From the NCBI GenBank assembly GCA_023953695.1, contig JAMLJG010000011.1, positions 1 to 64,000 of the forward strand: a stretch of 64,000 bases of DNA. The letters run 5' to 3'. This DNA is from Kiritimatiellia bacterium. GTDB lineage: Bacteria; Verrucomicrobiota; Kiritimatiellia; CAIVKH01. A model generated the notes under the pieces. It was not told where the DNA came from, made no database searches, and saw only the letters and a list, made by a program, of their open reading frames with translations. A program made the translations under genes and the position numbers. This document shows positions 31,073 to 63,842 of this stretch, piece after piece; position 1 is the stretch's first letter; each line of letters starts with the position of its first letter.

Positions 31073-31123
31073 ACTTCCAAGGATTGGAAAAAGGGCGCGC
31101 GGCGACTTCCAAGGATTGGAAGT
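31073..31123 (-). repeat. Paired TTCCAA-NNN-TTGGAA palindrome element, locus A
   Basis: Two 15-bp palindromes, TTCCAA-GGA-TTGGAA at 31075-31089 and 31107-31121, centres 32 bp apart, spaced by 17 G+C-rich bases. Read on the minus strand the spacer begins GTCGCCGCG, matching locus C. It lies between the end of the TPR membrane protein gene (31125) and the start of the next minus-strand gene (30961). Confidence 0.85.
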
Positions 31124-31124
31124 C

Positions 31125-32645
31125 TCACTGATAGCGACCGAGCGGATCGAGCGCACGCGCCTTTTCGGCGGCTTCAATCGCCTCCTCGCGCCGCCCTTGC
31201 TGTTCGCGGACGAGGGCGAGCGTGGCCCAGGCTTCGGATTTGTCCGGGCGTCGCGCAAGGGCTTCTTCCAGCTTGGCAGACGCGGCATCGAGCGAGCCCG
31301 TGCGCGCATCGAGGACAGCGAGGTTGATGAGCGCAGTCACGTCGCGCGGGTTCAGCGCATCGGCGCGCCGAAAGTATTCGGCGGCGTCCTCCGGAATCCC
31401 GTGGCGCAGGGAGGCCAGGCCGAGGCCGACGTTGGCCCGCGCGCTGCGCGGCTCGGCGCGAACGGTGGCGCCCCACAGGGTGTCGTCGCTATAAAAGTTG
31501 GGCAGCCGCAGTTCGAGCAAGAGCACATAGACCACCGCGAGGGCGAGAATACCGCGCCGAATGACGCGGTCTTCCAGCGGTAGCGCGGCCACGAGGAGCG
31601 CAAATCCCGCGATGAGCGAATAGGCGTAGCGATCGGCAATGGGATTGTGCAGCGGCACGAGATTGGAAATGGGGAGAAACGCAATCAACATCCACGCGAG
31701 GCCGAACGCGAAGAGCGGTTGCCGTCGCCGCGCCACAATGGCGAGCGCGGCGACGGCGAGGACGCTGAAGAGGCCGATTACAAACGCAGCGCTGGCGGGC
31801 TTGGCGACCGCAGAAACAATGCGGTCCACAGAAAGCGGCCACGGCGCGATGAGCAGTTTGAGATAGCGCAGAAAAATCCACGGCGCGGTCCACACATTCT
31901 CTGGCGGTCGCAGCGAAAGCCCGTTCCACGCGCCCGCCCACGCCTGCGGCGGGTGCGCCACCACACCGAGCCCCATCACAGCGGCGGTCAATGCGACACC
32001 CGCGCCAAGCTCCCACGCCCCGCGCCGCGCGCTCGGGCGCTCTGCGGGAAACAACCACCAAAGAGCCGCCGCGAGCGCGGGGAGAACGGCAGCGTATTCT
32101 TTTGCGCCGAGGGCGAAGAGAAAGGCAACCCCTTGAAGCGGCGCGCGCCACCGCGCTGCCCGCCACGGCGAGAGCGCGAAGACTACGAGCATCCAGAACA
32201 ACGCGAGCGGATCCTCGCGGAAGGAGGGCAGTTGCACCGCCTCGCTGGCGAGCGGGTGCAGGGCAAAAATCATCGCGGCGATGAACGCGCGGGCGGATGC
32301 GCCTCGATCGCCCGCGCGCTGAAGCACGCCGCGCAGCCAGGTGAAAAGCAGCAACACGCAACCGGCGTGCAGCAGCAAATTGGCAATGCGATAGCGCCAC
32401 GCATCGCGCGCGCCGAGGGCGTGGTCGAGCAAAATGGAGACAAGCAGCGTCGGGCGCGTTCCATCGAGCGTGCGGGGCTCGAAGAAGGTGCGCAGGGTCA
32501 ATACGCGCGACCACGCATCGGGCGCGGTGAGCAATTGATTCTCCACAATCGCGCCGTGGTCGTCATAGACAAAGCCGTTAAAGAGGCCGGGCAAATAGGG
32601 AAGAAGGGCAAGCGCGAGGAGAAGCAAAAAGGGCCGCGCCCTCAT
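31125..32645 (-). CDS. Polytopic membrane protein with TPR tail (TMTC-like)
   Basis: A 506-residue inner-membrane protein. It has about ten hydrophobic segments, an extracytoplasmic FVYDDHGAIVENQLL loop after the first (the Asp-Asp pair typical of GT-C glycosyltransferases and TMTC proteins), and ALHPLASEAVQLPSFREDPLA and LVPLHNPIADRYAYSLIAG loops. The last ~110 residues are three TPR units (ANVGLGLASLRHG, ALINLAVLDARTG, AWATLALVREQQGRR). The fold suggests an O-glycosyltransferase using a lipid-linked sugar, but the substrate is unknown. Its ATG overlaps the era stop (ATGA), an unusual operon partner. Confidence 0.8.
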   Translation of the reverse strand: MRARPFLLLLALALLPYLPGLFNGFVYDDHGAIVENQLLTAPDAWSRVLTLRTFFEPRTLDGTRPTLLVSILLDHALGARDAWRYRIANLLLHAGCVLLLFTWLRGVLQRAGDRGASARAFIAAMIFALHPLASEAVQLPSFREDPLALFWMLVVFALSPWRAARWRAPLQGVAFLFALGAKEYAAVLPALAAALWWLFPAERPSARRGAWELGAGVALTAAVMGLGVVAHPPQAWAGAWNGLSLRPPENVWTAPWIFLRYLKLLIAPWPLSVDRIVSAVAKPASAAFVIGLFSVLAVAALAIVARRRQPLFAFGLAWMLIAFLPISNLVPLHNPIADRYAYSLIAGFALLVAALPLEDRVIRRGILALAVVYVLLLELRLPNFYSDDTLWGATVRAEPRSARANVGLGLASLRHGIPEDAAEYFRRADALNPRDVTALINLAVLDARTGSLDAASAKLEEALARRPDKSEAWATLALVREQQGRREEAIEAAEKARALDPLGRYQ

Positions 32646-50143: not shown

Positions 50144-51514
50144 CTACGAGCCCTCGCGCCCATCAGCCGAATCGCGAAGGCCATACTCGTTCAACTTGCG
50201 GTGCAGCGTCCGCCGACTGATCCCCAGCTCTGCCGCCGCCTTCGTCACATTCCCGCCACTCGCCTTGAGCGCGCGGACAATCATCTGCTTCTCATTCGCC
50301 TCCAACGAAAGCGCGCCGCCGCGCGCGGGCGCTGCATCCAATTCCCCGCGCACGTGCAGCGGAACATCGCGCAAGGTCAGCTTCTCTCCGCGCGCCAAAA
50401 CCACCATGCGCTCAACCATGTTGCGCAACTCGCGCACATTCCCCGGCCACTCGTAGCCACCCAACGCCTGCATCGCCTCCGGAGTGATTCCCACAATCTT
50501 TTTGCCGTTCTCCTCCGCAAAAACGGAAATAAAATGGTCCACCAGAAGCGGCAAGTCCCCCACCCGCTCGCGCAGCGGCGGCAACCGAATTGCCACCACA
50601 TCCAGGCGATAAAACAAATCCTCGCGAAACGTCCCTTCCTCAACCTTCTTCTTGAGGTCGCGATTCGTCGCCGCCACCAGGCGCACATCCACATCAATCG
50701 TTTCCTGCCCGCCCACGCGCTCGAAACGGCGCTCCTCCAACACCCGCAGAATCTTCACCTGCAGCGAGGAATCAATCTCCCCAATCTCATCCAGAAACAG
50801 CGTGCCGCCATCCGCCAACTCGAATCGCCCGCGCCGGCGCTCCGTCGCCCCCGTGAACGCGCCGCGCTCGTGCCCAAACAACTCGCTCTCCAACAGCGTT
50901 TCCGACAGCGCGGCACAATGCACGGCAATGAACGGCCCCTTGCTGCGCGGGCTCAACCGGTGCAGCGCCTGCGCAACCAACTCCTTCCCCGTGCCACTCT
51001 CGCCCTGAATCAGCACCGTCGCGCGCGATTGCGCCACCTGCCGAATCGTGTCGAACACCTCCTGCAACGCGGGCGATTGCCCCACAATGTTCTCCAAACC
51101 AAATCGCGCATCCAACTGCTCCCGCAACGCCCGGTTCTCCACCTCCAACGCCCGACTCTCCAGCGCCCGCTTCAACACCAACTCCAGCCGATCCAGATTG
51201 ATCGGCTTGGTCATAAAGTCATACGCCCCGCGCCGCATCGCCTCCACCGCCAACTCAATGCTCCCATACGCCGTCAACATGATGCACACCGGCGCCGGCG
51301 ACCGCGCAATCGCCCGCTGCAACAGCGTGAGCCCATCCATCCCCGGCATCCGCACATCGCTCAACATCACATCCACCGGCTCATTCGCCAGAATCTCCAG
51401 CGCCCGCGGCCCGTTCTCAGCCAACCGCACGTCATAGGAACGCTGTAGCGCCCGCGCCAACCCCTCGCGCGAGTTCTTCTCATCATCCACAATCAATACC
51501 AACGGCTTCTTCAT
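50144..51514 (-). CDS. Sigma-54-dependent response regulator, NtrC family
   Basis: A 456-residue regulator. The receiver (residues 5-120) has LIVDDEKNS and the acceptor Asp53 in VMLSDVRMPGMDG. The AAA+ domain has GESGTGKE, the sigma-54-contact loop GAFTGA and GGTLFLDEIGE, and a C-terminal Fis-type HTH (NVTKAAAELGISRRTLHRKLNEYGL). It activates sigma-54 promoters when phosphorylated by the kinase encoded just upstream. ATG overlaps the kinase stop (ATGA). No -24/-12 promoter was found in the window, so targets lie elsewhere or are weak. Confidence 0.95.
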   Translation of the reverse strand: MKKPLVLIVDDEKNSREGLARALQRSYDVRLAENGPRALEILANEPVDVMLSDVRMPGMDGLTLLQRAIARSPAPVCIMLTAYGSIELAVEAMRRGAYDFMTKPINLDRLELVLKRALESRALEVENRALREQLDARFGLENIVGQSPALQEVFDTIRQVAQSRATVLIQGESGTGKELVAQALHRLSPRSKGPFIAVHCAALSETLLESELFGHERGAFTGATERRRGRFELADGGTLFLDEIGEIDSSLQVKILRVLEERRFERVGGQETIDVDVRLVAATNRDLKKKVEEGTFREDLFYRLDVVAIRLPPLRERVGDLPLLVDHFISVFAEENGKKIVGITPEAMQALGGYEWPGNVRELRNMVERMVVLARGEKLTLRDVPLHVRGELDAAPARGGALSLEANEKQMIVRALKASGGNVTKAAAELGISRRTLHRKLNEYGLRDSADGREGS

Positions 51515-52716
51515 GAATCGGCCTCTCCCTCCGCGCCCGCGTGCGTCGCATCCGAAGCGCGCGCGCGCAGCAGGCGAATCCGCCGCTCATCGCGCGGCAA
51601 ATACAGCGTAAACGTCGTGCCCGCCTTCGGATCCGTCCGCACCTCCAGCTCTCCGCCATGATCCCGCACAATGCGCTGAACAATCATCAAACCCAAACCC
51701 GTCCCATCGCTCTTCGTCGAAAAATACGGATCAAAAATTGAACCAAAATCATCGAGCGGAATCCCCGGCCCCGTATCCGTGAACGACAAAATCACAAAGC
51801 GATCATCGCTCGACAACTCGATCCGCAACACCCCCCCGTGCGCCATCGCCTGAATCGCATTGCGAATGATGTTGAAACACGCCTGCTTGATCTGCCCCCG
51901 ATCCACCAGCGCCAACGGCAACTCCTCCGCCGACTCCACCTCCACAATCACATCGCGATCCGCAATCTCGCGCCGCAAGAAATCCAACGTCTGATCCACA
52001 ATCTCCCGCAGCGACGCCCGCTCCAGCGTCGGCTGACTCGGCCGCAGCGCCCGCAAAAACTGCGTAATAATCTGATCCAGCCGCTCCACCTCCCGCCGCG
52101 AAACACTCACCAACTCCTTCATCCCCTCGCGATCCAACGCCTCCGAACCCGCCAGCTCCCGCTCCAACAACTGCAAATGAATCGTCAGCGAATTGAGCGG
52201 ATTCCCAATCTCATGCGCCACCCCCGCCGCCAACAGCGTAATCGCCTGCAGCCGCTCCGACTCAATCGTCCGCGTCTCGCTCTCCCGATCCCGCGTCACA
52301 TCGCGCAAAATCAACACCGCCCCATGCTCCCGCTCACTCACCGCCCGAAGCGGAACAATATAGAAATCCAGAAACCGATGCTCCGGATACGCAATCTCGA
52401 TCTCGCGACTCACCAACCGCGACCACTCATCCTCATCCAAATCCAACACCCGCTCCCACTCAATCTCTCGCAAATACCGCCCAATCGGCTGCCCCTCCGC
52501 CTTCGCCGCGCTAAACCCCAACAGCTTCTCCGCCGCCCGATTCGCATACGAAATCCGCCCCCCATCCCCCAACACAATGATCCCCTCCTGAATCGCGTGA
52601 AAAATCGTCTCCAACAACCCCTTCTCATGCGCCAATCGCAGAAACTGCGTCTGGAGACTGCCCGTATCCAGCCGATCTAACCGATCCACCAATTTTTCCC
52701 AAAAACCCGAATTCAT
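51511..52716 (-). CDS. PAS-domain sensor histidine kinase (NtrB/AtoS-like), cytoplasmic
   Basis: A 401-residue soluble kinase: a PAS domain (LETIFHAIQEGIIVLGDGGRI...) about residues 30-145, HisKA with LLAAGVAHEIGNPLNSLTIHLQ, and HATPase_c with NIIRNAIQAMAHGG and DTGPGIPLDDFG. There is no membrane segment, so it senses an internal signal. The start is uncertain: ATG 52716 has GGGA five bases before it and is used here; ATG 52722 and TTG 52737 are alternatives. It is translationally coupled to its NtrC-like partner. Confidence 0.92.
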   Translation of the reverse strand: MNSGFWEKLVDRLDRLDTGSLQTQFLRLAHEKGLLETIFHAIQEGIIVLGDGGRISYANRAAEKLLGFSAAKAEGQPIGRYLREIEWERVLDLDEDEWSRLVSREIEIAYPEHRFLDFYIVPLRAVSEREHGAVLILRDVTRDRESETRTIESERLQAITLLAAGVAHEIGNPLNSLTIHLQLLERELAGSEALDREGMKELVSVSRREVERLDQIITQFLRALRPSQPTLERASLREIVDQTLDFLRREIADRDVIVEVESAEELPLALVDRGQIKQACFNIIRNAIQAMAHGGVLRIELSSDDRFVILSFTDTGPGIPLDDFGSIFDPYFSTKSDGTGLGLMIVQRIVRDHGGELEVRTDPKAGTTFTLYLPRDERRIRLLRARASDATHAGAEGEADS

Positions 52717-52811: not shown

Positions 52812-52862
52812 ACTTCCAACCCTTGGAACTCGCGCCCGCGCGAACTTCCAACCCTTGGAACT
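52812..52862 (+). repeat. Paired TTCCAA-NNN-TTGGAA palindrome element, locus B
   Basis: Two 15-bp palindromes TTCCAA-CCC-TTGGAA at 52814-52828 and 52846-52860, centres 32 bp apart, with a 17-base spacer containing CGCGC-CC-GCGCG. The element ends TTGGAACTTTTC. It is in the divergent intergenic region between the kinase and nth genes, about 90 bases before nth. Confidence 0.85.
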
Positions 52863-52949: not shown

Positions 52950-53612
52950 ATGACTCCCCAACACCACACCCCCCAACTGCGCCACCGCGCCACCGAAATC
53001 CTCGACCGCCTGCGCCGCCACATCGAACTGCGCTGCGAACTCGACTTCACCACCCCCCTCGAACTCGCCGTCGCCGCCATCCTCGCCGCGCAATGCACCG
53101 ACAAACGCGTCAACACCGTCACCCCCGCGCTCTTCAAAAAATATCGCACCGCCCACGACTACGCCAACGCCGAGCCCACCGAACTCGAAACCCTCATCCA
53201 ATCCACCGGCTTCTTCCGCAACAAAGCCAAGAGCATCCGCGCCCTGGGCGCCGCCCTCCTCCAACACCACAACGGAGAACTCCCGCGCACCCTCGACGCC
53301 CTCATCAAGCTCCCCGGCATCGGACGCAAAACCGCAAACCTCCTCCTCGCCGACGCATTCGGACAACCCGGCCTAATCATTGACACCCACCAAATCCGCG
53401 TGAACCAACGCCTCGGCATCACCCAACAAACCGACCCCACAAAAATCGAAATAGAGCTCCGCGACCTCCTCCCGCCCGCCGACTGGACCGACTGGTCCCA
53501 CGCCCTCACCCTCCACGGCCGCTACACCTGCCTCGCCCGCAAACCCCTATGCGCCCAATGCCCCCTCACCGACCTCTGCCCCTACTTCGCCGCACACCCA
53601 CTCCGCCACTAA
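52950..53612 (+). CDS. nth: Endonuclease III
   Basis: A 220-residue bifunctional DNA glycosylase/AP lyase. The HhH region is IKLPGIGRKTANLLLADAFG with the catalytic Lys (RKTAN), the catalytic Asp is in IIDTHQIRVNQRLG, and the [4Fe-4S] ligands are C-x6-C-x2-C-x5-C (CLARKPLCAQCPLTDLC). It excises oxidised pyrimidines. This canonical copy contrasts with the second, Lys-less member at 34981. The start ATG at 52950 is the first with a leader; the same frame is open upstream through the palindromic element without coding sense. Confidence 0.95.
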   Translation: MTPQHHTPQLRHRATEILDRLRRHIELRCELDFTTPLELAVAAILAAQCTDKRVNTVTPALFKKYRTAHDYANAEPTELETLIQSTGFFRNKAKSIRALGAALLQHHNGELPRTLDALIKLPGIGRKTANLLLADAFGQPGLIIDTHQIRVNQRLGITQQTDPTKIEIELRDLLPPADWTDWSHALTLHGRYTCLARKPLCAQCPLTDLCPYFAAHPLRH

Positions 53613-63791: not shown

Positions 63792-63842
63792 ACTTCCAAG
63801 CATTGGAAGTCGCCGCGAGGCAAACTTCCAAGCATTGGAACT
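63792..63842 (+). repeat. Paired TTCCAA-NNN-TTGGAA palindrome element, locus C
   Basis: Two 15-bp palindromes TTCCAA-GCA-TTGGAA at 63794-63808 and 63826-63840, centres 32 bp apart, with a 17-base spacer GTCGCCGCGAGGCAAAC. The element ends TTGGAACTTTTC as at locus B. It lies directly downstream of the DUF6132-like gene and upstream of the giant amylase. Confidence 0.85.

Follow-up and report, generated by a model that had tools for sequence, protein, structure and literature searches.

REP and BIME elements are small extragenic palindromes that are present in high copy and often paired (PMC3733652, PMC2817692), and within the Verrucomicrobia high-copy GTAG repeats have been reported from O. 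terrae (PMC3733652). Regularly spaced DNA sites are also known from oligomeric DNA-binding proteins. Dimers of the Lrp/AsnC (feast/famine) family are arranged on one face of the helix (PMC2995911, PMC10201364), with Lrp-type sites occurring in clusters whose centres are two or three helical turns apart (PMC2995911), and NrdR binds two palindromic boxes approximately three turns apart, for which integer numbers of turns are optimal and four turns are tolerated (PMC12051234).

The window analysed here, a stretch of 64,000 nucleotides from a Kiritimatiellia bacterium (GCA_023953695.1; referred to below as the own genome), contains TTCCAA-N3-TTGGAA palindromes in pairs that resemble each of these systems in part. 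As with REP/BIME elements, the palindromes are extragenic, high in copy number, and often paired, and they share a phylum and a high copy number with the GTAG repeats of O. terrae, but they differ in lacking the GTAG tag and any association with RAYT, in having spacers that are unrelated to one another, and in being helically phased and perfectly symmetrical. As in Lrp/AsnC clusters, the palindromes are short and their dominant spacings (21–22 and 30–32 bp) correspond to two or three turns; unlike the variably imperfect Lrp sites of control regions, the stem is exact and occurs in hundreds of copies in gaps of every orientation. The NrdR box pair likewise consists of two palindromes separated by whole turns, most often three, but is located upstream of ribonucleotide reductase operons with few copies per genome, whereas here 58–1339 sites occur beside unrelated genes. 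The NrdR box consensus also differs from TTCCAA-N3-TTGGAA, and the sites of ordinary transcription factors show more degeneracy. The two systems are taken as precedents, and membership in the Lrp/AsnC or NrdR site classes is not claimed. A literature search limited to open papers found no earlier description of the motif.

Geometry, abundance, and sequence of the paired palindromes

The six palindromes that the original prediction had grouped into three 51-bp elements were all found in the window, each pair separated by 32 bp from centre to centre (Table 1), and the gene calls agreed with its placement of all three elements between genes, with the provision that gene positions derive from a home-made gene caller and starts may be misplaced. 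Element 1 occurs 1 bp beyond the stop codon of a TPR-type gene, element 2 in the gap that separates the divergent genes for a histidine kinase and an endonuclease III (HhH-GPD), and element 3 ~8 bp beyond the stop of the right-hand minus-strand gene.

Table 1. Coordinates of the paired elements, neighbouring genes, and REP-type elements (window positions unless a locus is given)
Feature	Position	Strand	Description
Element 1	31073–31123	.	Palindromes 31075–31089 and 31107–31121, both TTCCAA-GGA-TTGGAA; spacer 17 bp
TPR/glycosyltransferase-like membrane protein gene	31125–32627	-	3′ end abuts element 1; type by sequence reading
Histidine kinase gene (PAS, HisKA, HATPase_c)	51511–52716	-	Left of element 2; Pfam
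Element 2	52812–52862	.	Palindromes 52814–52828 and 52846–52860, both TTCCAA-CCC-TTGGAA
Endonuclease III-type HhH-GPD gene	52950–53612	+	Right of element 2; Pfam
Gene of ~2,900 aa	54786–63560	-	Alpha-amylase-like and many other repeats; predicted ORF nearly 9 kb
Element 3	63792–63842	.	Palindromes 63794–63808 and 63826–63840, both TTCCAA-GCA-TTGGAA
True REP-type elements	20987, 54493; also L134, L140, L142, L145, L163, L167		

Exact palindromes (n = 6) and exact pairs (n = 3) in the window compare with none of either in 100 dinucleotide shuffles, and across the own genome (G000; 2.62 Mb, 39 contigs) 170 exact sites were present compared to a single site of a reversed control motif. The genomes are metagenome-assembled, and the own genome was read over about one third of its length (853 kb for gene context). 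Within 455 kb, 15 neighbouring exact pairs were 32 bp apart, and the other neighbour distances <150 bp were one 30-bp join of two pairs and one 95-bp gap, itself containing two one-mismatch palindromes at 32-bp steps. At most apparent single sites, a palindrome differing from the motif by one or two bases was located exactly ±32 bp away, and one single site had no such partner. The stem is nearly invariant, with 37 exact sites compared to 4 with one mismatch in the same 455 kb, while two-mismatch sites (n = 12) compare with 5–8 for two control motifs. A variant palindrome, TTACAGACGTTGGAA or TTCCAGACGTTGGAA, recurs as an imperfect 32-bp partner (L140, L143, L147, L148), and one copy, located inside a glycosyltransferase-like reading frame, is also retained in FR_21 (G289), a relative about 73% identical to the own genome (66–81% in matched genes).

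Pooled over all loci, 225 of 286 distinct neighbour distances were 31–32 bp, followed by 21–22 bp (n = 23), 30 bp (n = 10), and 41–42 bp (n = 7), with 53, 62–64, and 94–95 bp also represented; own-genome sites were retrieved without a spacing condition, while loci from relatives were retrieved with a pattern allowing 20–50 bp between sites, such that the range is partly imposed and the peaks inside it are not. The distinct neighbour spacings were coherent at 10.5 bp (coherence, 0.90; phase, 0.01 turn). The size of arrays differs by genome, from mostly single sites in G079 and G065 to arrays of seven in G087. Wide variation in spacing among other copies, which the original prediction had named as grounds for rejecting a fixed geometry, was not observed, as the set of spacings widens in the relatives only by whole helical turns.

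The consensus sequence is TTCCAA-N-S-N-TTGGAA (S, G or C), with G or C as the middle base of the triplet at 50 of 52 positions in the own genome and 50 of 50 in FR_21. The flanks vary by lineage, with AC...GT in the own genome and FR_21 and TT...AA in G012, G065, and G079; the predicted outer AC...GT/CT is therefore retained as a flank preference of the first two genomes and does not apply to the other lineages. When the palindromes were masked, spacers and outer flanks shared no sequence among the copies of the own genome, and the few matches were largely degenerate partner palindromes. Because spacers are unrelated among copies, the partial spacer likeness that had been pointed out (TCGC near the start) is present in two of the three elements as an incidental resemblance and not as a general feature. 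Hairpin or cruciform folding of the spacers did not exceed that of shuffled spacers.

Within a pair, one triplet is similar to the other in direct orientation, both in the own genome (mean Hamming distance, 0.88 vs. 1.73 expected; 0 of 2000 shuffles) and in FR_21 (p = 0.008), a likeness not accounted for by the simple binding of dimers. Strand skew was rejected as the source of the likeness, which persists in both genomes after orientation by GC skew. Tandem duplication was likewise rejected as a general origin, with no consistent likeness of spacers or flanks in either genome, and it leaves the unrelated spacers unexplained. Two arrays in G087 and G101 differ by exactly one 31-bp unit (L216:7080–7265 vs. 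L230:1620–1775), which directly demonstrates the expansion or contraction of arrays by a tandem unit, and this local gain or loss in an array of another genus was the only copying observed.

Distribution in the Kiritimatiellae and conservation at gene junctions

Using a sample of 289 genomes from the phylum, 26 of the 97 genomes of the Kiritimatiellae were found to carry 58–1339 sites, with 14 sites in one further genome and ≤7 in the rest, while each of the 192 genomes from other classes carried ≤5. The motif family is restricted to this one class. In a paired-site scan of 85,000 species genomes, nearly all of the matches listed belonged to the Kiritimatiellae or were filed as Lentisphaerae/Verrucomicrobia. 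Paired elements were also seen in records titled as Prevotellaceae, Firmicutes, and Limosilactobacillus metagenome-assembled genomes (L037, L043, L062, L125), most likely mis-binned or mislabelled contigs. Viruses were rejected as carriers, as 13 of 2.9 million viral contigs matched and the spacings were mostly chance-like. One authentic-looking array (spacing, 31, 31, and 41 bp; triplets, CGG and TGA) was present on contig IMGVR_UViG_3300035698_006241 (L299, L302), which is probably a phage or prophage of the Kiritimatiellae.

Within genera, the number of sites jumps between genomes (170 vs. 2 in genus g1; 151 vs. 5 in g2; 1177, 1132, 640, 334, 74, 4, and 3 in g10). In 350 kb of G265, a site-poor member of the same genus as the own genome, the motif has no phased palindrome as a substitute, and candidates for a replacement turned out to be REP-like families only. 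A different high-copy palindrome of G265, CCCTCTCCC..GGGAGAGGG then GGGGTGAGGG, is REP-like (L178, L180, L181, L193, L195).

Elements are retained at orthologous junctions while the sequence between palindromes diverges. The junction before QueF has a pair at 32 bp in both the own genome and FR_21, with 12 of 12 stem bases kept and diverged spacers (GCCCGGGAAAGGGCAAT vs. GTCCTTCGAGAATCCAT, respectively). On contig C2, a divergent gap (L147:14909–15145) possesses a pair in both genomes, and a second junction (L147:1981–2182) possesses four palindromes in the own genome compared to two in FR_21; in FR_21 these junctions have 12 of 12 stem bases and a spacing of 32 bp, with most of the spacer changed. 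The FR_21 ortholog of the gene at element 1 is followed directly past the stop by four palindromes, though the other neighbouring gene is different. For element 2, no element was found upstream of the FR_21 ortholog of either flanking gene, and synteny is broken there; for element 3, none was found at the 3′ end of the corresponding gene in G265, FR_21, or G172, with synteny broken in FR_21. Deeper comparisons (L019/L141 and L119/L145; 45–65% protein identity) had elements at the same junction, at loci that were chosen for holding elements. The element inside the nuo operon occupies a 67-bp gap between nuoC and nuoD that measures 2 bp in G172, showing that the arrival of some elements brings in additional DNA. 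Collectively, invariant stems, unrelated spacers, the lack of strand bias (see below), and the retention of palindromes at junctions point to selection on double-stranded DNA.

Gene context and competing explanations

In 853 kb of the own genome, 29 elements were distributed among co-directional (n = 18), divergent (n = 4), and convergent (n = 4) gaps, the inside of predicted genes (n = 2), and a stretch end (n = 1), with 219 co-directional, 92 divergent, and 42 convergent gaps of at least 51 bp available. Among relatives, the elements were co-directional (n = 91), divergent (n = 24), convergent (n = 25), inside predicted genes (n = 24), or at an edge (n = 19). Neither the own genome nor the relatives showed enrichment in divergent gaps or depletion in convergent gaps. 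Within co-directional gaps, elements were nearer to the upstream stop than to the downstream start (89 vs. 47, p = 0.0004). The neighbouring genes are diverse, including nuoC/nuoD, prfB, EPSP synthase, QueF, a proB-type kinase, amylase, and lexA, and no common function was found among them. Sites are mainly extragenic in the own genome and G012, and in G079 many occur within genes and in all three frames (12, 10, and 9). Placement regardless of gene type and orientation, together with in-gene sites in all frames, favours a function at the level of DNA that is not tied to promoters.

Such placement is difficult to reconcile with the operator of a conventional regulon, bound at promoters by an Lrp-, NrdR-, or Fur-like regulator, which is an unlikely explanation even though the pair geometry is that of Lrp and NrdR sites and several elements occur upstream of start codons. 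Up to 1339 sites are present in a genome, the preference is for the vicinity of stop codons without any bias toward divergent gaps, and the FR_21 orthologs at element 2 have no upstream element. As the elements accompany every kind and orientation of gene, with unrelated housekeeping genes and even the nuo operon among them, they are not ordinary operators. Somewhat more doubtful is a dispersed palindrome of the REP/BIME type that a Y1 (RAYT) transposase, working on single-stranded hairpins, has spread or domesticated. This would agree with the high copy number (170), the extragenic and, within genera, patchy occurrence, the 67-bp gap where a relative has 2 bp, and the presence in the same genome of true GTAG-tagged REPs and Y1 transposase genes (nine domain matches). 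The REPs of the own genome provide a contrast from within. One family (GTAGGGCGGTTTGGCTCAAACCGCC, with a GTAG foot) has 11 copies in 853 kb and the other (GTAGGGCGCGTTGGCCCAACGCGCC) has 10, and they are separate sequences with conserved flanks and without fixed 32-bp pairing. The TTCCAA palindromes, flanked by AC...GT or TT...AA, are without the GTAG/CGTC tag and without a flank or spacer common to the copies, and Y1 genes do not track the sites, being absent in site-rich G148 (183) and G053 (58) and abundant in site-poor G038, G015, and G068. Further, a mechanism acting on single strands would have no use for helical phasing, and the elements keep their positions from genome to genome while their spacers are neutral. 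Of the two readings in the original prediction, binding (by a dimer of dimers) is supported by integral-turn spacings and by palindromes that are kept as spacers drift, while a mobile or processed repeat is not supported, given the absence of a common flank or spacer, of the tag, and of Y1/RAYT tracking.

A role at the level of RNA, as a double hairpin in the 3′ UTR that stabilises mRNA or acts as an intrinsic terminator, is highly improbable. Placement nearer to stop codons and a T run that often follows in FR_21 are in its favour, as is an outer-arm hairpin that can fold on both strands and is more stable than shuffles, though such folds exist because any paired palindrome must fold. The stem is invariant without compensatory change, the spacing follows the repeat of B-DNA, the spacers are no more hairpin-prone than shuffles, and in most lineages the flanking bases are T on the leading side and A on the trailing side, opposite to the order in a terminator. 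Transcript-strand bias was absent (TCA 42/TGA 41; GGC 30/GCC 28; T-G vs. C-A flank mismatches, 33 vs. 22). No terminator-like sites (a G+C-rich hairpin with a T run behind it) were found at the three window elements, and an Rfam search of the window matched only a tRNA and none of the elements. Large, exact, and patchy copy numbers and sites inside genes in all frames, as in G079, could also come from a genome-wide drive that maintains a sequence tag, for example a signal for DNA uptake or segregation; exact helical pairing is not expected of such tags, nor does the mainly extragenic location of copies in the own genome and G012 agree with them, making this explanation very unlikely.

A putative oligomeric binder and its implications

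Compared to these alternatives, the paired or arrayed motif is rather likely to be the double-stranded DNA site of a putative oligomeric, sequence-specific homodimer with a genome-wide architectural or global role. A homodimeric protein would recognise TTCCAA-N-S-N-TTGGAA as double-stranded DNA, and a spacing of two, three, four, five, or six whole turns, of which three is the commonest, would put at least two dimers on one face of the helix. Dimers in phase may then cooperate in binding, by forming a dimer of dimers or an oligomer of larger size. Based on the number of sites and their placement in gaps beside genes of any function or orientation, and even within an operon, an architectural or global factor is most likely, and the bound protein would be of the nucleoid-associated type, for example bridging or marking gene boundaries, as opposed to a single-regulon repressor.

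Several candidates for the protein were considered. An AsnC/Lrp-family domain is encoded by each of the 26 site-rich genomes and by 22 of the 26 site-poor genomes compared, such that the four genomes lacking it are site-poor, a distribution that is compatible with such a binder and not discriminating. LexA was rejected, as lexA has its own GAAC-N4-GTTC-type operator: a TGAAC-N4-GTTCA palindrome precedes a divergent lexA (L161:7350–7380; weak LexA_DNA_bind score), with a triple TTCCAA array further upstream, and a like palindrome occurs in G265, where TTCCAA sites are nearly absent. A gene family of ~330 aa (L216:7286–8347, minus strand) is located beside the seven-palindrome array of G087, with 70–80% nucleotide identity between copies and many copies in G101. 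This multi-copy gene was rejected as the cognate protein, as it is not near sites elsewhere and has no Pfam match. Beside the lone pairs of low-copy genomes, no regulator was evident at the two loci inspected.

Bacterial genomes seldom possess so many exact, helically phased sites of the protein-binding type. It is possible, and suggested here only tentatively, that the Kiritimatiellae possess a chromosome-marking system in which a putative oligomeric binder occupies hundreds to >1000 in-phase sites at gene boundaries, long conserved at orthologous junctions and present or absent wholesale within a genus. If one protein reads all of the sites, this class, which has been studied little, would possess a DNA architect dedicated to the whole genome, with a footprint that is readable from sequence alone. 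The swings in copy number within genera (2 vs. 170; 3 vs. 1177) make the comparison of gene content a direct route to the binder, and this boom-or-bust copy number constitutes a natural experiment on the building and dismantling of site networks.
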